Of a stretch of 64,000 nucleotides of DNA, positions 37,355-54,658 are shown one piece after another. This DNA comes from Pullulanibacillus sp. KACC 23026 (GTDB lineage: Bacteria > Bacillota > Bacilli > Bacillales > Sporolactobacillaceae). The notes below the pieces were generated by a model that was not told where the DNA came from, made no database searches, and saw only the letters and a list, made by a program, of their open reading frames with translations. Where the stretch lies: positions 868,001-932,000 of the forward strand of contig NZ_CP119107.1 in NCBI RefSeq assembly GCF_029094525.1, given 5' to 3'. Made by a program: the position numbers and the translations under genes. Each line of letters opens with the position of its first letter. The stretch's first letter is position 1.

Positions 37355-37987
37355 TTGGCTATATCGAAACCTCAGTTGAAAAAGCAGCTTTCCTTCTTGG
37401 TAGAATATGAGCGTCGTTATCATCTTCATTCGAATGAGAACTTGTTTCGCCAAAAGCTCTATCAAATCATTGCCGGATATTCCGAAGATGATGCGGCAGA
37501 TGACCTAACGAAAGATCCCGTTTTTACTCAAATCATTGGCACAAATGCCTTGGCTTCTCAGCCTAGTTTATCTCGCTTTTTCAAACGATTTGATGACCAA
37601 TTAGTGGAAGAATTAAACCAAGCGAATCAAGCACTTCTTGATAAGGTCCATCAGCACAGAGAATCTAAGGCTCTCATTCTAGATCTCGATTCAACGCATT
37701 CAGATGCCTATGGTGAACAAGAAGAATCAGCTTATAATGCTCATTACGGAACAGTGGGATTTCATCCATTGGTTGCCTTTGATGGTGTAACAGGTGACTT
37801 TCTTAAAGCTAAGCTACGCCCAGGGAATGTGTATACGTCAAACGGTGTGGTCGATTTCATTCAACCCCTGATTGAACATTACAACGAAACATTTCGACCC
37901 GGCAGGAAGTGCTTTTCTTCCGAGGAGGCTGAAGCGTTGCCCGCGGAAAGCGAGCCTATTTCCGCTTTCATAAATGGAAAAAGGTAA
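37355..37987 (+). pseudogene. IS1380-family transposase fragment
   Basis: A 210-codon frame from a TTG without a ribosome site. The middle of an IS1380 transposase is clear: NLFRQKLYQIIAGYSEDDAA, PVFTQIIGTNALASQPSLSR, LILDLDSTHSDAYGEQEES (first catalytic Asp) and KLRPGNVYTSNGVVDFI. Full transposases have about 430-450 residues; here both ends are lost. The N-terminal match begins only around codon 13, and after FRPGRKC the frame runs into an unrelated repeat (37921-37965). No terminal inverted repeats seen. Non-functional remnant. Confidence 0.88.
37921..37965. repeat. GAGGAGGCT-CCGCGGAAAGCGAGC repeat (family C)
   Basis: Contains CGAGGAGGCTGAAGCGTTGC then CCGCGGAAAGCGAGC. The same element occurs in inverse orientation at 56784-56885. 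Its left junction cuts the IS1380 transposase. Confidence 0.8.
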
Positions 37988-39687: not shown

Positions 39688-41604
39688 CTATTGTGCCTCG
39701 ATGTCTTTTAATTTTCTCCATAACGTAGCACGGCTGATGCCTAGCTTTCGAGCGATTAAGTCTTTGTTGCCGTTGAGCTTTTCTAGATGGTTAAGGATGA
39801 CCTGTTTTTCGATATCTTTAAGTGTTCCTTCATAACTAGGGGACATGGAACGCTTTTCAATAGCAGAGTTGTCTTGAACTTTATCATTCAGTTCGTTGAT
39901 CATTTCAATAGAGACCATCTCTTTTGGAATATCAGTCTGCGAAAGAACCACGAATTTCTCTAATATATTTTCCAATTGCCGGATGTTACCAGGCCAAGAA
40001 TAGTTTAAAAACGTATTAATCAGTTCGTTTGGTATGACGGGCTTTGGACAATTGTACCGATTGGAAAGCTTATTCAGCAGCTTGCTCACAAGTATTGGAA
40101 TGTCCTCTTTGCGTTCTCTAAGAGGGGGGAGCGGAATAGTTAGCACGTTCAGCCGGTAGTAGAGATCCGCCCGGAATTTCCCTTCGCTGATGTCTTTTTG
40201 TATATCGCGATGGGTAGCTGCGATAACCCGAACATCGATACTAATGATCGAGCTTCCTCCAATGCGCATGATTTCACGCTCCTGAATCACACGCAATAGA
40301 CGTGATTGCAATTCAAGAGGCATTTCACCAATTTCATCAAGGAAGATCGTACCGCTATGGGCCAGTTCAAAGAGCCCTGCCTTCCCATTTCGACTAGCCC
40401 CTGTAAAGGCCCCAGGCTCATAACCAAAAAGCTCACTCTCAAGTAGATTAGGAGGAAGCGCCCCACAGTTAATTGGAACAAAAGGCCGATTGTTTCGATT
40501 GCTTTGATTATGAATGCTTTGAGCAATTAATTCTTTCCCCGTACCTGTCTCTCCTTGAAGTAATATAGTCGAATCGGTTTGACTAAAATGAGTCACCTTT
40601 TCTGCCACATTTTTCATTGCCGGAGCAACCGCCACGAGATCCTTCAAGCTTTGTTTGGCGACAAATCCAGAATGGCTTAATTTACGGCGGATTTTATGCT
40701 CTAGCTTCTGAATGTGTGTGACGTCCTGTAAAGTCACGACCCAGCCTATTTTCTCATGGCCAACTACGATGGTTCGTTTCGAAACGGAAACGACGGAGTC
40801 CTGCAGTTTGGCAATTTCCCCATTAAATTCCTGCTTCTCATTTATTAAGTGAAGCAGCTCCTGTTCTGAATTCAAAGCGCTTTCTATTTGGTGGTTCATA
40901 AAAGAGTTAGGGTCTTGTTTAAGAAGAACGACTGCCCGATTATTCGCCAATATGATCTGAGAATCGTTGGAGATGATAAAGATCCCATCTTGGGCGGTTT
41001 CAAGAATCATTCGCAATTGCTCATTAATCTTCCGTTCCTGAAAACGCGCAAGAATGAGGTTTTCGGCCATATCGAAAGCTTCATGGACGCTTGAGCTAGA
41101 TGGCATGAGCTTAATTCCAGGCAAGCCAAATTTTTTCGTGTAGTCGATGGACATTCCATCACCCACAACAAAATCGATTTGGTCTTCAATAGCTTTTCTA
41201 ACCTGAAGATCTAAGTCATGCTCATAGGAGAAGACCGGGTAAATTTTAATATCAATATAGCTTCCGAGCTCACGATAATCACATATAATGTTTTCTACTC
41301 CAATGAGACCAATCTTTTGATAACGGGTCTTTAAGGAATGAACTGTTCTCAGGATATCGAGTACAGTCATTTTGACTTCCACGACAGGGATATGAAGCTT
41401 TTGTTTTAAAAGAGTGGCCTGGCCTCCTCGGGTAATTATGACCTCCGCCCCATTAGCTTCTTCTTGCTTAGCAATTGGAACCGTTTCTTCAAACGAAAAA
41501 TCCCGATCGCTTTCTGGCGCATAAATTTTGTAGGAATCGCCGACAGCTGTCCGAACGGTATCAGCAAACTCCTTTGAAGGGGCAATGACGATAATTTGGC
41601 TCAT
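39688..41604 (-). CDS. PrpR-type sigma-54-dependent transcriptional activator
   Basis: 638 residues. Residues about 1-190 form a PrpR_N sensor domain (IIVIAPSKEFADTV, EVIITRGGQATLLKQK, SVHEAFDMAENLI). About 195-305 is a PAS domain (MILETAQDGIFIISNDSQII). About 325-560 is the AAA+ domain with Walker A GETGTGKE, the sigma-54 contact loop GAFTGASRNGKAGLFE and Walker B GTIFLDEIGEMP. The C-terminus is a Fis-type helix-turn-helix (NKDLIARKLGISRATLWRKL). PrpR_N domains bind small carboxylates or sugar-acid ligands. It is divergent from a sigma-54 promoter and so should activate the sugar-acid operon. The palindrome 41640-41654 next to its start is a likely binding site. Confidence 0.95.
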   Translation of the reverse strand: MSQIIVIAPSKEFADTVRTAVGDSYKIYAPESDRDFSFEETVPIAKQEEANGAEVIITRGGQATLLKQKLHIPVVEVKMTVLDILRTVHSLKTRYQKIGLIGVENIICDYRELGSYIDIKIYPVFSYEHDLDLQVRKAIEDQIDFVVGDGMSIDYTKKFGLPGIKLMPSSSSVHEAFDMAENLILARFQERKINEQLRMILETAQDGIFIISNDSQIILANNRAVVLLKQDPNSFMNHQIESALNSEQELLHLINEKQEFNGEIAKLQDSVVSVSKRTIVVGHEKIGWVVTLQDVTHIQKLEHKIRRKLSHSGFVAKQSLKDLVAVAPAMKNVAEKVTHFSQTDSTILLQGETGTGKELIAQSIHNQSNRNNRPFVPINCGALPPNLLESELFGYEPGAFTGASRNGKAGLFELAHSGTIFLDEIGEMPLELQSRLLRVIQEREIMRIGGSSIISIDVRVIAATHRDIQKDISEGKFRADLYYRLNVLTIPLPPLRERKEDIPILVSKLLNKLSNRYNCPKPVIPNELINTFLNYSWPGNIRQLENILEKFVVLSQTDIPKEMVSIEMINELNDKVQDNSAIEKRSMSPSYEGTLKDIEKQVILNHLEKLNGNKDLIARKLGISRATLWRKLKDIEAQ

Positions 41605-41840: not shown

Positions 41841-41858
41841 TTGGCATGAAACTTGCAT
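41841..41858 (+). promoter_or_regulatory. Sigma-54 (-24/-12) promoter
   Basis: TTGGCATGAAACTTGCAT matches the consensus TTGGCAC-N5-TTGCW with GG and GC at the right spacing. It lies about 33-50 bp upstream of the aldolase ribosome site. The ATG inside it is therefore not a start codon. With a sigma-54 activator encoded divergently, the assignment is well supported. Confidence 0.9.
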
Positions 41859-41890
41859 ATAGAAAAGTGTGCGAAAGGAGGTCAAAGAAA

Positions 41891-42559
41891 GTGACTTTAG
41901 AAAAGCAAGAGCAGCTATCACAAAAATTGGTGGAAACAGGTAAGTATCTTTTAGCTAACCAGCTCGCATGGGGGACATCTGGAAATATCAGTGCTCGGCT
42001 AAATGACAAGCAAATGTTAATTACGGCTTCAGGTACAGAAATGGGAAGCCTCCAACCTAACGATTTTGCCTTCGTTAATTTTGAAACAGGTGACTGGGAG
42101 GGAGACCGTAAGCCATCTAAAGAAGTCCCTATGCATACAGGAATTTACCAAGTGCGTCAGGATGCTAATGTCATTCTTCACTCTTCACCGTTTTATACAA
42201 CATTAATGGCATCAAGTGAGGAGCCGATTGTTTCGGAATTGTTTGTTGAAACGATGTACTTCCTTGAGGATGTTGCTTATGTAGACTATTTTCATCCTGG
42301 CACCGCTGAGTTAGGGGAGGCGGTTAAGGAACAAGCTGAAAATGGCCATGTCCTTATTTTGAGAAATCATGGGGTTATTCTTTTTGATGATTCGTTTTCA
42401 GATGCTGTTATGAGATTAGAAACCCTGGAAATGGCCTGCCGAATGATTATAACGGCAAAATCAGCAGGGATCCCATTAACAAAGATTCCCGATCAGGTGG
42501 TTCGTGATTTCTTAGAAAACGCGCGGTATAAACCTAGGAAGAGAATTTGGCAAAAGTAG
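41891..42559 (+). CDS. Class II aldolase/adducin-family protein (OtnC/FucA-like)
   Basis: 222 residues from GTG 41891, 9 bp after AAAGGAGG; an ATG at 41846 lies inside the promoter. Family motifs: WGTSGNISARL, LITASGTEMG, EVPMHTGIYQ (Glu 78) and ILRNHGVILF (His 160). Zinc in this family is held by H-x-H plus a third His; here the pair reads ILHSSPFY (His 97 kept, Ser 99 in place of the second His). Relatives split fuculose-1-phosphate or decarboxylate 3-oxo-tetronate-4-phosphate (OtnC). First gene of the operon, so it probably acts on the kinase product or an upstream intermediate, with altered metal binding. Confidence 0.85.
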   Translation: MTLEKQEQLSQKLVETGKYLLANQLAWGTSGNISARLNDKQMLITASGTEMGSLQPNDFAFVNFETGDWEGDRKPSKEVPMHTGIYQVRQDANVILHSSPFYTTLMASSEEPIVSELFVETMYFLEDVAYVDYFHPGTAELGEAVKEQAENGHVLILRNHGVILFDDSFSDAVMRLETLEMACRMIITAKSAGIPLTKIPDQVVRDFLENARYKPRKRIWQK

Positions 42560-42617: not shown

Positions 42618-43643
42618 ATGAAAGCTGTTATGATAGATCGTCCTTATTCTGTAGTTGTTACTGATGTAAGTAACGCTCCTCTAGGGGACCACGATGTACG
42701 TATTCAAGTTAAGGCAGCCGGAATATGCGGATCGGATATTCATGCTTATAAAGGACTTCATCCATTTCGTCAGCCTCCCGTTATTATTGGCCATGAAATT
42801 TCTGGAGAAGTTGTAGAGCATGGCCGCCTGGTCACACGTGTCAAAGTGGGAGATAAAGTCACAGTTGAGCCTCAGGTAGGCTGTGGTAAATGTGAGCACT
42901 GCCTGCAAGGTGAAACGAACTATTGTGATCATCGTCAAGCACCTGGTATTGGGAATTGGTATGGCACCATGGCTGAAAACTTTGTCGCTCATGAAGATGT
43001 CGTTTTCGTCTTACCCCCAAATATGGATCACAAAGTGGGGGCGCTATCTGAACCACTTGCTGTTGGGGTTCATGCGATTCGTCAAGCTGATATTCAAATT
43101 GGGGATAAAGTGGCTGTTCTTGGATCAGGCCCGATTGGATTATTAGCTGTGGCTGTTGCGAAGGAAGCGGGCGCTACTACGATTCTTTCAACCGATGTCT
43201 TTGATTATTGCTTAGATACAGCTACAACAATGGGTGCCACGCACACGATTAACATTAGTGGAAAAGATAATTGGCTCGATAAAGCAAGGGAAATGATTGG
43301 TGGGTCCTTTGATAAAGTCCTCGTTGCGATCGGCGTCCCTGGCATTGTTAATCAGGCCCTTTCTCTCGTGAAAAAAGGCGGCCGTGTCGTGACTATTGCA
43401 ATGTTCCATGGTGAGCAATCTCTAGATATCATGCAGCTTCAAGGTCAAGAAAAAGAATTAGTGGGCTGCTTCTGTTATACACGCGAGGATACGATCACCG
43501 CAGTTGATTTACTTGCTTCCGGCCGAATCCCAACAGATGCCATTGTTACGCACGTCTTACCTTATACGCAGGCGGCAGATGGTTTTAGAATGATGGAGAA
43601 AAAGGAAGATAATCCGCTTAAGATCCTTGTTACTTTTGACTAA
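42618..43643 (+). CDS. Zinc-dependent medium-chain alcohol dehydrogenase
   Basis: 341 residues; ATG 42618 behind GAGGAAGTG. Catalytic zinc ligands lie in GICGSDIHAY (Cys) and IIGHEISGEV (His-Glu); the structural zinc site is CGKCEHCLQGETNYC. The NAD-binding motif is VLGSGPIGLLAVAVAKEAGA, followed by Asp in LSTDVFDY, which favours NAD over NADP. Type: sorbitol/threonine/galactitol dehydrogenases. In the operon it would oxidise a hydroxyl of the imported sugar acid to a keto acid before phosphorylation. It starts 58 bp after the aldolase and ends 33 bp before the RuBisCO-like gene. Confidence 0.92.
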   Translation: MKAVMIDRPYSVVVTDVSNAPLGDHDVRIQVKAAGICGSDIHAYKGLHPFRQPPVIIGHEISGEVVEHGRLVTRVKVGDKVTVEPQVGCGKCEHCLQGETNYCDHRQAPGIGNWYGTMAENFVAHEDVVFVLPPNMDHKVGALSEPLAVGVHAIRQADIQIGDKVAVLGSGPIGLLAVAVAKEAGATTILSTDVFDYCLDTATTMGATHTINISGKDNWLDKAREMIGGSFDKVLVAIGVPGIVNQALSLVKKGGRVVTIAMFHGEQSLDIMQLQGQEKELVGCFCYTREDTITAVDLLASGRIPTDAIVTHVLPYTQAADGFRMMEKKEDNPLKILVTFD

Positions 43644-43676
43644 GGGAAGCTTCCCTAAGAATGGAGGGAACGAAAA

Positions 43677-44939
43677 TTGAAAAGTGAAGAACGTGTTCTA
43701 GCAACCTATTTGATTGAAACGCCTTATTCTTTGGAATACGCGGCAGAAGTTATGGCAGGTGAACAATCAACGGGTACATTTGTTTCAGTTCCTGGAGAAA
43801 CAGAAGCCCTTAAGGAACAACACGGGGCTAAAATCGTGTCCGTTAAAGAAGTGGATGCCAGCTATTATCCGACATTGCCGGGAGCAAAGCCCCTAGTAAA
43901 AGATAAAAAGGCGGTTTATCACCGCGGACAGGTCGTGCTCTCGTTTCCTTTTCATAATTTTGGACCCTCCATCCCCAATCTTTTGGCAACGGTAGCGGGC
44001 AATCTGTATGAGCTTCGTGAGTTTTCCGGTCTCCGATTAATTGATCTTAAATTACCTGAAGCGTTTATGGATAAGTATTTAGGGCCGCAGTTTGGGATTG
44101 AAGGAACGCGCAGACTGGCGAATGTTTATGAGAGGCCTTTGATTGGTACGATTGTCAAACCGAGTATTGGACTGCCGCTAGAAGAACTAAGGGTTTTGGT
44201 TCGGCATCTGGCTCTTTCTGGTATAGATTTTATTAAAGATGATGAGCTCAATGCGAATCCTCCTTATGCACCTCTAAAGGAAAGAGTAAAGGTTGTGATG
44301 GAGGAAATAGAACGGGCTGCCGATCGAACCGGTAAGAAGGTCATGTATGCGTTTAATATAACTGGAGATATGGATGAATTAAGAGAAAACCACGATACAG
44401 TCGTCGCAGCGGGTGGAAATTGTGTGATGGTTGGGATTAATAGTGTTGGCTATACAGGTGTCTCTTATCTTAGAAACTACTCGCAGGTGCCGATACACGG
44501 ACATCGAAATCAATGGGGGGCGATGACGCGATGCCCATTACTGGGGATGGATTTTCGGGTCTATCAAAAATTATGCCGTTTAGCTGGTGTGGATCATCTT
44601 CATACAAATGGCCTGGACAGTAAATTTTACGAGTCCAATGCAACTGTTATTCGTTCTGTGCAAGATTGCTTAACACCAATGTTCGGTGAGGACACCGTGA
44701 TGCCAGTCCTTTCTTCGGGGCAATGGGCGGGTACCGCCATCGGCTCCTACAACGCGATGAAGACAGTCGACCTGATTCATTTGGCAGGCGGCGGGATTAT
44801 GGCTCATCCTGATGGTGCAGCGGCAGGAGTTGAAAGTATGAAGCAGGGATGGGAAGCCGCATTAACCGGCTCTTCATTGGAAGCTTATGCCGAAACTCAT
44901 CCCGAATTAGCTCGAGCTATAGAGAAGTTTGGAAAATAA
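43677..44939 (+). CDS. RuBisCO-like protein (type IV), candidate OiaX/OiaT type
   Basis: 420 residues; TTG 43677 follows GGAGGGA. RuBisCO large-chain fold. Active-site residues kept (spinach numbering in brackets): Glu 29 [60], Lys 161 [175], Lys 187 [201, carbamylated], Asp 189 [203], Glu 190 [204] in IDFIKDDE, His 276 and Arg 277 [294, 295], His 309 [327] and Lys 316 [334]. Lys 177 is Ser 163 and Trp 66 is Phe 35. The phosphate loop LAGGGIMAHPDGAAAGV is intact. This is not a CO2-fixing enzyme. RuBisCO-like proteins next to DUF1537 kinases act in D-apionate degradation (decarboxylase OiaX or transcarboxylase OiaT); that role is inferred here. Confidence 0.9.
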   Translation: MKSEERVLATYLIETPYSLEYAAEVMAGEQSTGTFVSVPGETEALKEQHGAKIVSVKEVDASYYPTLPGAKPLVKDKKAVYHRGQVVLSFPFHNFGPSIPNLLATVAGNLYELREFSGLRLIDLKLPEAFMDKYLGPQFGIEGTRRLANVYERPLIGTIVKPSIGLPLEELRVLVRHLALSGIDFIKDDELNANPPYAPLKERVKVVMEEIERAADRTGKKVMYAFNITGDMDELRENHDTVVAAGGNCVMVGINSVGYTGVSYLRNYSQVPIHGHRNQWGAMTRCPLLGMDFRVYQKLCRLAGVDHLHTNGLDSKFYESNATVIRSVQDCLTPMFGEDTVMPVLSSGQWAGTAIGSYNAMKTVDLIHLAGGGIMAHPDGAAAGVESMKQGWEAALTGSSLEAYAETHPELARAIEKFGK

Positions 44940-45091: not shown

Positions 45092-46393
45092 ATGTTGGCC
45101 AATAAAAAACAAGAACCGCTGGAGAATCCGACCGGGTTTAAACTTCCTGGATTACGCTGGTGGATGTTCTCATTCTTTATCTTAGTAATGATTATTAACT
45201 ATATTGATCGATCGTCGATTTCAATCGCAATGCCTTTAATTAGTAAGCAGCTTCATATTAATTCCGTTACGATTGGTATTATCCTAAGTTCCTTTAGCTG
45301 GACCTATGCTCTAATGCAGGTTCCAGGAGGTTGGCTCGTAGATAAGTTGAAGCCGCGTAAGGTGGTCGCGACCAGTTTAATTGGTTGGGGGATTGCGGAA
45401 GCCCTTACAGGTTTTGCGACAGGTATTGCCACGTTAATGGGCATGCGTATGTTCTTAGGGATTTTTGAAGGTCCTGTTCAAAACGGTGCCAATACTTCTT
45501 TGATTCGCTGGTTGAGAAGACATGAACGTTCTCGTGGGAGCACGCTTGTGGACGGTGGCGGACCACTTGGAACGGCCATTGGCGGACTTTTTGTAACCGG
45601 TCTTATTATTTGGTTAGGCTCTTGGCGACTTGCATTCGGTGTCGTGGGTGCGATCACGGTATTGATTGGTGTCATTGCCATCCTATTTATGCGCAATAAT
45701 CCGGCTGAACATCCTTGGATGACGGAGAAAGAAAAATTATATCTTTCAAAAATTGATGAGGAAGATGAAGAAGATGATGTAAAAGGGAAAGCGGGCAACT
45801 ACTTCTTACATCTAAGCCCATGGATGCTTCTCCTTGCTTTCTTCGGTTATGATATCGTTCTATTTGGTCTTCTTACTTGGGCTCCAACTTATATTAGTCA
45901 GCAGCAGCATATTTCTCTTGGAATAACGGGTGTTTGGACATTTGTCATCTTTGGTGCCGGCTTCTTAGGTGAGGTTTTTGCCGGCCAATTAGCAGACTTC
46001 TTAATTAGAAAAGGTGCTTCTGCAAACGCGGTTTTACGGACGATGCTAGGATTTGCTGGAGTCGGCGTGGCAGTAGCTATCATTTTGGTTAACCATGTGA
46101 ACACAGCGAGCGCTGCCATTCTATTAATTACACTTGCTAATTTCTTCCTTCGTTGGGGTGGATTATTCTGGAGTGTTCCCGCCCGACTTGCGGCGAAAAA
46201 GCATGTTGGTCTACTAACTGGTGCGATGAACTTCTCTGGAAATATTGCAGGGATCATCATTCCCATCTTAATTGGTTTTATTGTTCAAGCAACCAACAGC
46301 TATGCGGGGGTATTCGTTACGTTTGCGATTTCGGGTCTCCTTATGGCTATTGGATCTATTGGCATTAACTATTCAAGAAAAATAAACATCTAA
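45092..46393 (+). CDS. MFS transporter, anion:cation symporter (ACS) type
   Basis: 433 residues; ATG 45092 behind AGGTGGTG. Twelve hydrophobic segments. ACS-family strings: NYIDRSSISIAMPLI, FSWTYALMQVPGGWLVDKL, and MRMFLGIFEGPVQNGANTS. Relatives move galactonate, glucarate, hexuronates or tartrate with protons. A charged central loop contains the run EEDEEDDVKG. In this operon it should import the sugar acid. Spacing from the previous gene is 152 bp, larger than for the others, and contains a cre-like site. Confidence 0.93.
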   Translation: MLANKKQEPLENPTGFKLPGLRWWMFSFFILVMIINYIDRSSISIAMPLISKQLHINSVTIGIILSSFSWTYALMQVPGGWLVDKLKPRKVVATSLIGWGIAEALTGFATGIATLMGMRMFLGIFEGPVQNGANTSLIRWLRRHERSRGSTLVDGGGPLGTAIGGLFVTGLIIWLGSWRLAFGVVGAITVLIGVIAILFMRNNPAEHPWMTEKEKLYLSKIDEEDEEDDVKGKAGNYFLHLSPWMLLLAFFGYDIVLFGLLTWAPTYISQQQHISLGITGVWTFVIFGAGFLGEVFAGQLADFLIRKGASANAVLRTMLGFAGVGVAVAIILVNHVNTASAAILLITLANFFLRWGGLFWSVPARLAAKKHVGLLTGAMNFSGNIAGIIIPILIGFIVQATNSYAGVFVTFAISGLLMAIGSIGINYSRKINI

Positions 46394-46418: not shown

Positions 46419-47816
46419 ATGCAGAGTGAAACGTCAAAGGAGAGTAGGCTCGTTCTTTCCTTTTATGGGGATGATTTTACGGGTTCAACAGATGCCATGG
46501 AATCCCTCACGATTAATGGATTACCAACCGTCTTGTTTCTAGAGGTTCCCGATCAATCCGTTTTAAGGCGTTTTCCGCATATTAAGTGTGTTGGGGTTGC
46601 TGGAAATAGCCGGGTCATGAGCCCTGAAGAAATGAAGCAGGAACTACCGTCAATTTTTAAAGGGTTAAAGAGCTTGGGCAGCGAGTACGTGCATTATAAA
46701 GTTTGCTCCACCTTTGATTCCTCAAAAACTATCGGAAACATTGCGACTGTTTTAGAAATTGGTCAAGAGGTTTTTGATTCTCAGGTCACGGTGCCAGTAT
46801 TTGTCGCGTCACCTGACTTAAGACGCTACACCGTTTTTGGAAATCATTTTGCGGCAATGGGGGAGAACGTTTATCGATTAGATCAGCATCCTGTTATGTC
46901 AAGGCATCCTATAACGCCTATGTCCGAAGCCGATTTACGTGTCCTATTACAGGATCAGGGGTTAGCGGGACGCATTGAATTAATCAACGTGGTGGACTTA
47001 GAGCAGCCAATGGAAGCTTTAAAGCTGACTTTTAAGGGAAAGGTATCTGAAGAATCAAAAGCGGTTGTCTTTGATTCCTCAAGGAAAGAGCACGTGGATA
47101 AAGTGGGTGAGTTGCTTGCTTTATCCCGATATTCAGATGAACCCTTATTCCTAATCGGTTCATCTGGAGTCGGGCATGCCATTTCAGCTGTCCAGCAAGC
47201 GTCTATTGTTGAGGTCAGCAAACGCCCAGCCTTTAAAGAGGTTGATCAACTGCTTGTGGTTTCAGGGAGTTGTTCACCGGTTACGGAACAACAGCTTCAG
47301 TGGGCATTGACTAATGGTTTCGAGGGTATTCATCTGTCACTGCAAGAAGTCATGGATGACAAAAATGGTCAAGCAGCGATGCAGAACATTGTTGATAAGG
47401 CTTCTGAGATCGTTAAACACGGAAAAAGTGTGATTATCTATACCGCTCTCGGACCAGATGATCCAAGCATTAAGGAAAATCAGCGTGTCTTCAGAGAACG
47501 TGGCGCCTCCATTTCGGAGTCCAGCAAAATCCTCGGTTCTTACTTAGGTGAAGTCGCCAAGCTTGTCATTCAAGAGACCGGCCTTGAACGCTTAGTCGTT
47601 GCCGGCGGGGATACCTCCAGTTATGCTACAAGACAGCTCGGTATCTACGCATTAGAAATGGTGACGTCGATTTCACCAGGTGCCCCGTTGTCCAGATGTC
47701 ACTCAGATGACCCGCGACTTGACGGATTAGAATTAGCATTAAAAGGCGGACAATTTGGCAGTGTCGACTATTTCGGCAAAGTCTTAACTTGTGCACCGAA
47801 CTCGGTCCAGGCTTAA
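46419..47816 (+). CDS. DUF1537 four-carbon acid sugar kinase family protein
   Basis: 465 residues; ATG 46419 behind GGAGGGA. N-terminal substrate domain begins FYGDDFTGSTDAMESL, the DDFTG signature of the family; a second conserved part is HYKVCSTFDSS. The C-terminal nucleotide domain has LIGSSGVGHAI, LVVSGSCSPVTEQQL and VVAGGDTSSYATRQLGI. The YGDDFTGSTD opening is close to the kinases of 3-oxo-isoapionate (OiaK) type, as I recall it. Products are 4-phosphorylated keto acids, the natural substrate of the RuBisCO-like or aldolase-like enzymes encoded upstream. Last gene of the operon; a terminator follows 28 bp later. Confidence 0.92.
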   Translation: MQSETSKESRLVLSFYGDDFTGSTDAMESLTINGLPTVLFLEVPDQSVLRRFPHIKCVGVAGNSRVMSPEEMKQELPSIFKGLKSLGSEYVHYKVCSTFDSSKTIGNIATVLEIGQEVFDSQVTVPVFVASPDLRRYTVFGNHFAAMGENVYRLDQHPVMSRHPITPMSEADLRVLLQDQGLAGRIELINVVDLEQPMEALKLTFKGKVSEESKAVVFDSSRKEHVDKVGELLALSRYSDEPLFLIGSSGVGHAISAVQQASIVEVSKRPAFKEVDQLLVVSGSCSPVTEQQLQWALTNGFEGIHLSLQEVMDDKNGQAAMQNIVDKASEIVKHGKSVIIYTALGPDDPSIKENQRVFRERGASISESSKILGSYLGEVAKLVIQETGLERLVVAGGDTSSYATRQLGIYALEMVTSISPGAPLSRCHSDDPRLDGLELALKGGQFGSVDYFGKVLTCAPNSVQA

Positions 47817-50803: not shown

Positions 50804-50922
50804 GGGGGTCAGACCCCTCACAAGGTATTTTGGAGCATTTGAAGGCGCAGAGGGGACAGACCCCACCTAATATATAGTGCAAAAGGGTAGATGGTGCGGC
50901 TTAAGGGGTCAGACCCCCCTTA
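50804..50922. repeat. Three GGGGTCAGACCCC palindromes between convergent genes
   Basis: Copies at 50805-50817, 50852-50864 (with an A change, GGGGACAGACCCC) and 50905-50917. They separate the SDR gene from the convergent AraC gene. The last copy encodes the final GGLTP and stop of the AraC protein. Confidence 0.9.
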
Positions 50923-52118
50923 AGTTGATACTGTTTCGGTGTGGTTCCTGTGATCTTTTTAAAAACTCTGGTAAAGTGGCTTTGGTCGGTAAAATTAAGC
51001 AGGTTACTAATTTCTGTTAAGGTGTAATCTGAAAATGAAATCAGGGAGATCGCTTCTTCGATTTTTGCTTGATGAACATAATCCCGGATAGTGATCCCGA
51101 CTTCCTTTTTAAACAGCTCGGATAGGTAGCTTGGGTGCAGGTTCACTTGTTTAACAAGGTCTTTAAGTGTTATTGGTTGATATACGTGTTTATAAATGAA
51201 GTTAAGGCATTTGGCAATAGGTTTAGAGTAGTGTTGTTCCCGTGTGTGATTGACTTGATCAATAAAGGTTAACATGCCTTCTTTGAATAGGGCATCCACG
51301 TTTTCTGGCTGATACGTGTCCTCGATTCTCTGAATATAGAGATCACTTAGAGTAAAAGCCGCTTCAGCATGTAACCCCCCCTTAATGGCGGATCGAGTTG
51401 CAACGGCAATTGCTGATATCGCTAAATTTTTTTTGCTCCTCAAAAAACTCGTCCTTGATAACATTCCTAATTCTTCTTCAGGTATTTTGTTTTGCCAATA
51501 TAAAAAAGCCTCTTTGTCACCTTTCTCAATAGAATCGAAGAAATGCTGATCAAAAGACGGATCATGATGAAAGTGTTCGGACTGCCGATTTTGCGATAAT
51601 AGGGTATCTTGTTTTTCAACTTCCTTCTCTTTAGGAGGTTGAATCTTTAAAAGGCCAATGACTTCTCGATTTAGGCGTTCTTCGTAGATCATGTAATGGA
51701 GAAGCAGGCCTAGGCTAGTCAATTGGTCTTGATTAAGGACAGTCATGTTCTGCAAGTCTTGCAAAGCCCCTTGCTTATCTCTTAAATCTGCAGAATCGTT
51801 GATTAACCCTTTTAATTGTTCCTCTCTCAGCTTAAATGGCAGAGTAGGACCTAAAAGGAGTACGCCATTTGGTGAATCAACACCTAAAATTGGTTGGACA
51901 AGAAAAAGCTCCGAGTGATGGGTCATGACCAAAATAGGCGTTTCTCTTTTTGGAGATAGGAATGAAGCAAGCTTCATTCGATGAAAGCTTTTTGTTCCAT
52001 TCGAGATAGGCAAGTCAAAGACCAAATCGTGATACGAGTCTATATAAACGATTGGAATAATATAAGATTCAAAGATCACCTGACAAATGTTCCATATCTT
52101 TTGAGTAGACGTCATCAT
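50901..52118 (-). CDS. AraC-family transcriptional regulator
   Basis: 405 residues from ATG 52118, 5 bases after GAGGAAG on the minus strand; a longer frame to 52172 lacks a site. The C-terminal 100 residues are the two-helix-turn-helix AraC domain (VNLHPSYLSELFKKEVGITI, then SNLLNFTDQSHFTRVFKKIT and GTTPKQYQ). The N-terminal 300 residues resemble the YesN/YsiA-type cytoplasmic sensing region with no known motif. It is divergent from the GH3 beta-glucosidase gene and probably controls it. Its last residues GGLTP come from a palindrome. Confidence 0.9.
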   Translation of the reverse strand: MMTSTQKIWNICQVIFESYIIPIVYIDSYHDLVFDLPISNGTKSFHRMKLASFLSPKRETPILVMTHHSELFLVQPILGVDSPNGVLLLGPTLPFKLREEQLKGLINDSADLRDKQGALQDLQNMTVLNQDQLTSLGLLLHYMIYEERLNREVIGLLKIQPPKEKEVEKQDTLLSQNRQSEHFHHDPSFDQHFFDSIEKGDKEAFLYWQNKIPEEELGMLSRTSFLRSKKNLAISAIAVATRSAIKGGLHAEAAFTLSDLYIQRIEDTYQPENVDALFKEGMLTFIDQVNHTREQHYSKPIAKCLNFIYKHVYQPITLKDLVKQVNLHPSYLSELFKKEVGITIRDYVHQAKIEEAISLISFSDYTLTEISNLLNFTDQSHFTRVFKKITGTTPKQYQLKGGLTP

Positions 52119-52232
52119 TACGACTTCCTCTCTATTAAATACATAAAAACGTACCGAATTTACTAAAATCATAACATAAATGGATTTGAAAAAGGGCTAA
52201 AATAAAATTAGAGAAAACGCTTCCTCGAAACT

Positions 52233-52337
52233 TTGAGATTCAGCCCCTTCTTGGAGGATCAGTCCTTTTCCATGTGAGTTTAGGGCTTTTCCTTGAGATT
52301 AGGTTTGGTTCCTATCGAGGAAGTTCGAGTTGAGATT
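52233..52337. promoter_or_regulatory. Three TTGAGATT direct repeats in the AraC-GH3 divergent region
   Basis: Copies at 52233-52240, 52293-52300 and 52330-52337, all in the same orientation, upstream of the GH3 start. A weak cre-like AGAAAACGCTTCCT lies at 52211-52224. AraC proteins bind direct repeats, so these are candidate operators; the 37 and 60 bp spacings are not exact helical multiples of each other. Confidence 0.35.
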
Positions 52338-52354
52338 TTGAGGAGGGTCAGTCA

Positions 52355-54658
52355 ATGGAACGTGATTTAAAAGGACTTATTCAGCAAATGACATTAGAAG
52401 AAAAAGCTAGCTTTGCTTCGGGATTGGATTTTTGGCATCTACAAGGTCTTGATCGTCTCGGGATCCCATCGGTTATGGTGACGGACGGTCCGCACGGCTT
52501 GCGCAAACAAGCAGAAGGCTCCGATCATTTAGGCTTGTTTAATAGTGTTCCAGCCACTTGTTTTCCATCGGCAGCAGGACTTGCTTGTTCCTGGGACCGT
52601 GATTTAATTCAACAAGTTGGAGAAGCACTTGGTGAAGAATGTCAGGCTGAGAATGTTGCGGTTCTCCTTGGACCTGGTGCCAATATTAAACGTTCACCTC
52701 TTTGCGGGCGAAACTTTGAGTATTTTTCTGAAGATCCCTATCTTTCTTCGCAAATGGCAGCCAATCATATTAAAGGTGTCCAAAGTAAAAACGTAGGGAC
52801 TTCCTTGAAGCATTTTGCAGTTAACAACCAAGAGCATCGCCGGATGACGACGAGTGCTGAAGTATCTGAGCGGGCTTTGAGGGAAATCTATTTGGCAAGC
52901 TTTGAAGGGGCTGTAAAGGAATCACAGCCATGGACAGTCATGAGTTCTTACAATAAAGTAAATGGGACCTTTGCTTCCGAAAATCCAAGACTACTCACGG
53001 AAATCTTGAGGGATGAATGGGGCTTTGAAGGGTTTGTGGTGTCTGACTGGGGAGCGGTTAATGAGCGCGTTGATGCGCTAAAGGCTGGTCTTGATCTTGA
53101 GATGCCGGCAAGCTATGGTGTGGGACAGACGAAGATCTTAGATGCGCTTCAAAATGGCTCACTTTCTGAGGAAACACTTGATCAAGCTGTTGAGCGAATT
53201 CTCTCTATTGTTTTTAGATTTGTTGATTCGAAAGACCAGAACGCTGCATTCGACAAAGAAGCTCATCATGATTTGGCACGTCAGGTTGCGAGTGAATGCA
53301 TGGTGCTTTTGAAAAACGAAGACAGCATTCTCCCGCTCGATAAAAAAAGGCCTGTCTCGGTAATTGGTGCCTTCGCGACGAAGCCTCGCTACCAAGGCGG
53401 AGGAAGCTCCCATGTCAATCCGACCAAATTGGAAAACAGCTTAGAGGAAATAGAGAAAAAATGTGCAGGAAAAGCTAATGTCCTCTATGCAAAGGGCTAT
53501 GATTTGGATCGTGATCAAACCAACGAAGAACTCCTCACTGAGGCAAAAGAAGCAGCTGTTCAATCCGATGTCGCCGTTCTTTTTCTTGGTCTTCCCGATC
53601 GCTATGAGTCAGAGGGCTATGATCGCGAGCATTTAAATATCCCGGCCAACCAGGTTGAATTGATCGAAGCAGTCTATGAGGTCCAAAAGAATATGGTTGT
53701 GGTATTAAGCAATGGGGCACCGATCGAAATGCCTTGGCTTGGTAAAGTAAAAGGCTTACTAGAAGGATATCTAGGCGGGCAGGGTCTTGGAGGTGCCGTT
53801 GCAGATCTCCTATTTGGATATGCTAACCCAAGTGGCAAGCTAGCTGAAAGCTTCCCACAAAAGTTGAGTGATAATCCATCTTATTTGTTCTTCCCGGGTG
53901 AAGGTGATCGCGTAGAGTACAAAGAAGATATCTTTGTTGGCTATCGTTATTATGACACCAAGCAAGTGAAGCCGCTATTTCCTTTTGGCTACGGGTTAAG
54001 CTATACGAATTTTAAATATAGTAATTTGAAGGTTGATAAAAAAGAAGCTCAAGAATCGGATCTTGTGACTGTTACGGTTGATGTCACGAACGCCGGAACA
54101 CTCGCGGGTAAAGAGATTGTTCAGCTCTATGTTAAGGATGTGATAAGCTCTGTCGCGCGCCCTGAAAAAGAGTTGAAGGGATTTGCAAAAGTAGCTCTTG
54201 AAACTGGCGAAACTAAAACGGTGACGTTCACTCTAGATAGAAGGGCTTTTGCTTTCTACAATACTGAGTTAAAGGATTGGGATGTTGAAACAGGCGAGTT
54301 TGAGATCTTAATAGGAAAATCCTCACAGGACATCCTGTTAAGTGATTCGATTAAGGTTATTTCATCGAGAACACCAAAATTAACCGTACACCGCAACACA
54401 ACGATCGGTGATCTTTTGAGTGATTCCGTTTTAGCTCCAGTTGCATCACAAGTACTGGCTAAATTAAATGAAAACAATCTACTCATGAGTGCAGCTGACG
54501 ACGAAGAAGGGGCAGACATGATGGCCGCTATGATGAAATACCTGCCGCTTCGTGCACTTGTCGGATTCAGCCAAGGTACTATTACAGAGGAACAACTGCA
54601 GGAAGCCATTGATCAGTTGAATGCGGCTTATGAAGAGGAAGGCAATGTTTCTAAGTAA
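52355..54658 (+). CDS. Glycoside hydrolase family 3 beta-glucosidase
   Basis: 767 residues, full GH3 length; ATG 52355 behind GAGGAGG. The N-terminal TIM barrel holds [23 protein letters not shown] and the nucleophile Asp in [19 protein letters not shown]. The second domain has [14 protein letters not shown] and [16 protein letters not shown]; a fibronectin-III-like domain lies at about 575-645 ([19 protein letters not shown]). No signal peptide, so it is cytoplasmic and should hydrolyse imported beta-glucosides or xylosides. An unusual acidic tail (about residues 695-767) with [14 protein letters not shown] follows the FnIII domain. Controlled by the divergent AraC gene, by inference. Confidence 0.94.

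Follow-up and report, generated by a model that had tools for sequence, protein, structure and literature searches.

A gene for a RuBisCO-like protein (RLP) lies in the window, the stretch of 64,000 nucleotides from Pullulanibacillus sp. KACC 23026 analysed here, and raises the question of which reaction its product catalyses. According to the original prediction, the protein keeps most RuBisCO catalytic residues, with Lys177 changed to Ser and Trp66 to Phe, and this pattern would point to enolate chemistry on a phosphorylated keto acid instead of enolisation alone.

Fold and catalytic residues of the RLP

The gene and the positions discussed below are as follows (window coordinates; RuBisCO positions in brackets).

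43677..44939, + strand: RLP gene, 420 amino acids, TTG start, Shine-Dalgarno GGAGGG at 43663-43668
43761..43763, + strand: Glu29 (Glu60), Asp in 18/18 OiaX
43779..43781, + strand: Phe35 (Trp66), Phe in 94/95 relatives
44001..44003, + strand: Asn109 (Asn123), Gly in 18/18 OiaX
44163..44165, + strand: Ser163 (Lys177), Ser in 86/95 and Asn in 9/95 relatives
44235..44246, + strand: metal site from the spinach alignment, Lys187 (carbamate Lys201), Asp189 and Glu190 (Asp203, Glu204)
44601..44624, + strand: loop 6, His309 to Lys316 (His327 to Lys334), Gln at 325 and 327 in OiaX

Matches of the protein to Pfam RuBisCO_large (E 2.6e-72) and to the sequence of 3nwr (E 1.2e-128) are far above chance. Its AlphaFold model (mean pLDDT 91.7), from whose alignment four rows from plasmid records were left out, superposes on solved RLPs and RuBisCOs. 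The best structural match is the RLP 3nwr (Z 52.2, rmsd 1.6 over 402 residues, 47% identity), followed by MtnW and then by RuBisCOs. This closest solved structure, from Burkholderia fungorum, shares Glu60, Phe66, Asn123 and His327 with the window RLP; it differs in carrying Asn177 and belongs to an SDR-linked clade.

Residues were numbered from a MAFFT alignment to spinach RbcL, the sequence of which was verified to be identical to PDB 1ir1/8ruc. Glu60 corresponds to Glu29, Thr65 to Thr34, Trp66 to Phe35, Asn123 to Asn109, Lys175 to Lys161, Lys177 to Ser163, Lys201 to Lys187, Asp203 to Asp189, Glu204 to Glu190, His294 to His276, Arg295 to Arg277, His327 to His309, Lys334 to Lys316, Leu335 to Phe317, Ser379 to Ser346 and Gly403/Gly404 to Gly371/Gly372. 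All the catalytic residues that had been described as retained are thus present in this structure-anchored alignment, and both substitutions are real. L335F, H298W and G380S are additional changes relative to RuBisCO that had escaped the prediction.

The two substitutions are not unique features of this protein, as Phe66 is found in 94 and Ser or Asn177 in all of 95 relatives. True OiaX proteins (n = 18, above the model cut-off) also have Phe66, with Ala (14) or Ser (4) at position 177, while MtnW, which does not fix CO2, retains Trp66. Being fixed family-wide, with Phe66 and the loss of Lys177 seen in OiaX as well, the substitutions neither single out the window RLP nor separate decarboxylation from other reactions, and their reading as pointers to the reaction is not borne out. 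The proposed substrate class, a phosphorylated 3-keto acid, is in better standing as far as the RLP family goes, with OiaX as the best curated model and an OiaK-like kinase in the operon.

Placement among RuBisCO-like proteins

The window RLP belongs to the broad group of 3-oxo-isoapionate-4-phosphate RLPs (OiaX/OiaT), a described family in which it is an ordinary member. In our trees its place is among these RLPs, apart from MtnW and RuBisCO, within a fully supported Bacillota clade that contains ApnO-linked, racemase-like-linked and Zn-dehydrogenase-linked RLPs. RLPs of Bacillota and of Alphaproteobacteria fall into separate clades, with weak support for their branching order, and the window clade shows no particular tie to Xanthobacteraceae.

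The best curated model for the protein is OiaX (NF042437) with 470.1 bits, 230 bits short of the cut-off of 700; type III RuBisCO scores 257 bits and MtnW 173-213 bits. The OiaX cut-off is reached by none of ten diverse relatives tested and is passed by 18 proteins (758-791 bits), which form one clade and come from the same order as Xanthobacteraceae. A CO2-fixing RuBisCO (forms I-III) is ruled out by Ser163 at the Lys177 position and by a TIGR03326 score of 257 bits against a cut-off of 497.

MtnW (DK-MTP-1-phosphate enolase, Form IV-YkrW) has the RuBisCO fold, the carbamate Lys and the metal ligands in common with the window RLP, but it is only 29-32% identical, alters Glu60, Arg295, His327 and Lys334, and retains Trp66. 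An enolase-only role is ruled out by these residue differences and by a separate MtnW-like protein, the third RLP of the genome; the MtnW model TIGR03332 gives the window RLP 173 bits (cut-off 514).

The sigma-54-controlled operon

The RLP gene is part of an operon with a divergent PrpR-type activator, followed by genes for an aldolase homologue, a Zn-dehydrogenase, the RLP, an MFS transporter and an OiaK-like kinase.

39688..41604, - strand: divergent sigma-54 activator, PrpR-type (PrpR_N + Sigma54_activat + HTH_8)
41842..41857, + strand: sigma-54 (-24/-12) promoter TGGCATGAAACTTGCA, upstream of the aldolase gene
41846..42559, + strand: class II aldolase/OtnC-like protein, Ser in place of the second metal His (HSS)
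42618..43643, + strand: Zn-dependent alcohol dehydrogenase, threonine-3-dehydrogenase-like, below equivalog cut-offs
45092..46393, + strand: MFS transporter, best match the D-galactonate transporter subfamily, 236 bits (cut-off 395)
46419..47816, + strand: OiaK-like DUF1537 kinase, best match OiaK, 446 bits (cut-off 700)

All nine operons of the window type have the promoter 5' of the aldolase gene, with 0-2 mismatches. The ATG proposed by the ORF finder for the aldolase homologue (41846) lies inside this promoter, which thereby falls within the called N-terminal extension; the true start is probably GTG 41891, preceded by AGGAGG. Other Bacilli have a second form of the operon, in which these enzymes are combined with a TRAP transporter and a GntR regulator. 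The RLP itself is routine; the operon is an unusual variant, and this variant, together with its RLP-free forms, is more telling than the RLP and most worth following. Elsewhere in the window, an apparently truncated transposase-like ORF is found at 37355-37987, and an AraC-type regulator gene divergent from a GH3-type beta-glucosidase gene lies near the sugar-acid operon (50901-54658).

Two queries for ApnO (D-apionate oxidoisomerase) gave no homologue in the genome, in a search that hit three positive-control genomes/records. With ApnO absent, the Zn-dehydrogenase is the likely candidate for making the 3-oxo acid in its place. The same genome encodes a second RLP of the family (64% identical); its gene, at G000:C1:3568301, is part of a glycosidase cluster, and some 26 kb from it lies another OiaK-like gene. 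This cluster (L098, G000:C1:3556500-3576400) contains GH2, GH42 and GH106-like glycosidases, an ABC sugar transporter and a racemase-like gene. Its glycosidases fit a role in the use of plant cell-wall apiose, which would leave the window operon for another compound.

The substrate of the window operon could be another branched acid, for example hamamelonate (2-carboxyarabinitol), the latter being the precursor of a plant RuBisCO inhibitor. The dehydrogenase would then form the 3-oxo acid and the kinase would phosphorylate it, before RuBisCO-like hydrolysis or oxygenation by the RLP. We consider this rather unlikely. It is in line with the missing ApnO, and we reason that a class II aldolase homologue would suit a six-carbon route; nothing links the operon directly to hamamelose, however, and no hamamelose dehydrogenase or lactonase was identified here. 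An RLP oxygenase of the D-hamamelose pathway has been published and speaks for this alternative (Kim et al. 2018, as cited in PMC8914248 and PMC10176493). This Ochrobactrum anthropi enzyme is an RLP of broadly similar kind. It reportedly leads to 3-phosphoglycerate and glycolate (PMC8914248), which also speaks for the OiaT-like cleavage preferred below.

Residues that probably separate decarboxylation from cleavage

Two reactions are described for the family: the RLP of Agrobacterium K84 decarboxylates 3-oxo-isoapionate-4-phosphate, and a Xanthobacter RLP transcarboxylates/hydrolyses the same compound (PMC6302742). OiaX (NF042437; Agrobacterium radiobacter K84) resembles the window RLP in having Phe66, in the loss of Lys177 and in its linkage to an OiaK kinase, and differs in sequence (44-47% identity); the window operon has no isomerase gene nearby. 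OiaX is said to yield L-erythrulose-1-phosphate, and OiaT reportedly gives 3-phosphoglycerate and glycolate (work of Carter et al., 2018). For OiaT (Xanthobacter autotrophicus) we used RLPs from Xanthobacteraceae, the family of the source organism, and assumed these to be OiaT from the organism named in a review. They are 54-55% identical to the window RLP and have Ser177, Phe66 and RuBisCO-like residues at 60, 123, 327 and 379 in common with it; their loci contain ApnO and ApnL, both of which are absent from the window operon.

Five positions divide the family. At 60, 123, 325, 327 and 379 the window RLP has Glu, Asn, His, His and Ser, as in RuBisCO, whereas all 18 true OiaX proteins have Asp, Gly, Gln, Gln and Cys or Gly; loop 6 (spinach 328-336) was read in this comparison from motifs and the MAFFT alignment to spinach RbcL. 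The RuBisCO-like residues are also present in the clade of the window RLP and in five of five Xanthobacteraceae RLPs. Together with the missed cut-off, they rule out the window RLP as an OiaX. Glu60, Asn123 and His327 are part of the RuBisCO active site (PMC5786004). The pattern therefore points away from simple decarboxylation and towards a RuBisCO-like cleavage of the OiaT kind.

Gene neighbourhoods, in which neighbour gene types were scored by tblastn, agree with a split into two reactions. OiaK-like genes occur near the RLP in 87 of 96 RLP loci. A triose-phosphate-isomerase-like gene, as expected after the OiaX decarboxylase step, is found in three of eight OiaX loci compared with none of 107 other loci. 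Two loci of the Bacillota clade, L022 and L026, instead have glcD and glcF (glycolate oxidase) downstream of RLP-OiaK, with GlcD model scores of 596.9 bits (cut-off 567.9) and 543 bits, respectively. The window operon contains neither glcD nor glcF, and the only GlcD homologue of the genome scores low (352 bits). As GlcD homologues are present in 13 of 14 genomes, glycolate disposal is uninformative as a test. From residue pattern and neighbourhood, the probable reaction of the window RLP is C-C cleavage to 3-phosphoglycerate and glycolate, rather than simple decarboxylation.

The five-residue contrast provides an easy way of telling decarboxylation from full RuBisCO-type cleavage by sequence and bears on how the later catalytic steps of RuBisCO were gained or lost. 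It could also aid the annotation of many RLP genes whose only name at present is 'ribulose-bisphosphate carboxylase large subunit family protein'.

Conversely, the RLP could remove CO2 as OiaX does, and the aldolase homologue could then cleave the resulting L-erythrulose-1-phosphate to DHAP and formaldehyde. OiaX being the best curated match, the loss of Lys177 in both proteins and the aldolase-fold gene in the operon are in favour of this scheme. We nonetheless find it unlikely, given the 230-bit shortfall, the RuBisCO-like state of the five positions that set apart all 18 OiaX and the absence of an isomerase gene nearby. Two features of the aldolase homologue weigh against it as well: the Ser at its second metal ligand, and its retention in operons from which the RLP is gone.

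The aldolase homologue and operons without the RLP

In its model (pLDDT 91.0) the aldolase homologue folds like fuculose-phosphate aldolase and YgbL (Z 26-27). Two of its metal-binding His, the first and the third, are intact, as is the catalytic Glu, and HxS stands in place of HxH; a conserved HPG motif is also present, as is a YKPR tail. It is a subfamily of its own. The OtnC model NF043034 gives 117 bits (cut-off 250), and the HxH motif is absent. Homologues 55-61% identical to the window copy are found beside a dehydrogenase and a DUF1537 kinase in three loci without an RLP (L127, L128, L129). This arrangement suggests that the aldolase homologue works in parallel with the RLP, taking the 3-oxo-acid phosphate itself as substrate, by analogy with OtnC (PMC12540250).

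Two operons of the window type lack the RLP. In G191 the operon is otherwise intact and the sole RLP elsewhere in the genome is MtnW-like, while G451 has another locus with RLP, OiaK and ApnO; a genome-wide absence in both is thus rejected, as it holds for G191 only. In a tree of the five other operon proteins, a sister relation of the two RLP-less operons is rejected (p-AU 6e-6). Because RLPs occupy the same place in the operon in both bacterial families, we read the two absences as two losses. Being independent on the tree, they make the RLP look optional, perhaps running parallel to the aldolase homologue. A third genome, G359, has one in-frame TAA in its RLP gene, where dN/dS is still 0.088, which indicates a recent stop or an assembly error. 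Operons with and without the RLP form a natural experiment that asks if one and the same step can be carried out by either a RuBisCO relative or an aldolase-fold enzyme.

These operons also bring up four-carbon acids (threonate/erythronate) as substrates. Dehydrogenase, kinase and the OtnC-like homologue would convert these to DHAP, and the RLP would be an accessory for a branched C5 acid or in the course of being lost. The independent RLP-less operons that retain all other genes, the in-frame stop in G359 and the RLP-free loci with related aldolase homologues are consistent with this idea. It is, however, quite doubtful, because the operon kinase is far nearer to OiaK (446 bits) than to OtnK (205 bits), the dN/dS of the stop-carrying gene implies recent constraint, and most operons retain the RLP.

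Proposed pathway

Building on the family membership, the residues and the operon content and variation observed directly, we infer the reactions and the substrate as follows. The explanation that we tentatively prefer, at somewhat less than even confidence, is that of a catabolic RLP of the OiaT kind, from the 3-oxo-isoapionate-4-phosphate family, in a sigma-54-controlled sugar-acid operon. The MFS transporter would bring in a sugar acid, which the Zn-dehydrogenase would oxidise straight to the 3-oxo acid, replacing ApnO, for phosphorylation by the OiaK-like kinase. In the RLP, Mg2+ coordinated by carbamylated Lys187, Asp189 and Glu190 would bind the 3-oxo-acid phosphate, which the enzyme would split into 3-phosphoglycerate and glycolate. 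The aldolase-fold protein would probably be a decarboxylase of the OtnC type working on this phosphate too, and the RLP would then be optional. The RLP-less operons count against this explanation in that the pathway may not need the RLP step.

A bolder version, which we regard as improbable, is an apionate-independent pathway, in which a branched sugar acid (possibly 2-carboxyarabinitol) would pass through the Zn-dehydrogenase to a RuBisCO-like cleavage enzyme, and the HxS-type aldolase-fold decarboxylase could replace the RLP on the same intermediate.

RLP loci in other genomes

Across the 96 RLP loci, ApnO genes are present in 37 and an Asp/Glu-racemase-like gene in 31. Both occur together in a single locus (L059), against the roughly 12 loci that independence would predict. 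The racemase-like protein may stand in for ApnO or serve a parallel route.

In seven loci from Burkholderiales, Rhizobium and Chimaeribacter (L063, L074, L077, L081, L085, L105 and L107), an SDR dehydrogenase replaces ApnO next to the RLP and OiaK genes, and an acid transporter (TRAP or KdgT) is often present too. Two Rhodoferax MAGs (L082, L095) have the order RLP-OiaK-ZnADH-TRAP followed by a racemase-like gene, with a second DUF1537 kinase in L082. Since these loci belong to a clade far from the Bacillota operons, use of the Zn-dehydrogenase arose twice or was transferred. The RLP gene of Paenibacillus sp. P25 (L055, 8001-9244) is frameshifted, with 14 stops in the nominal frame.
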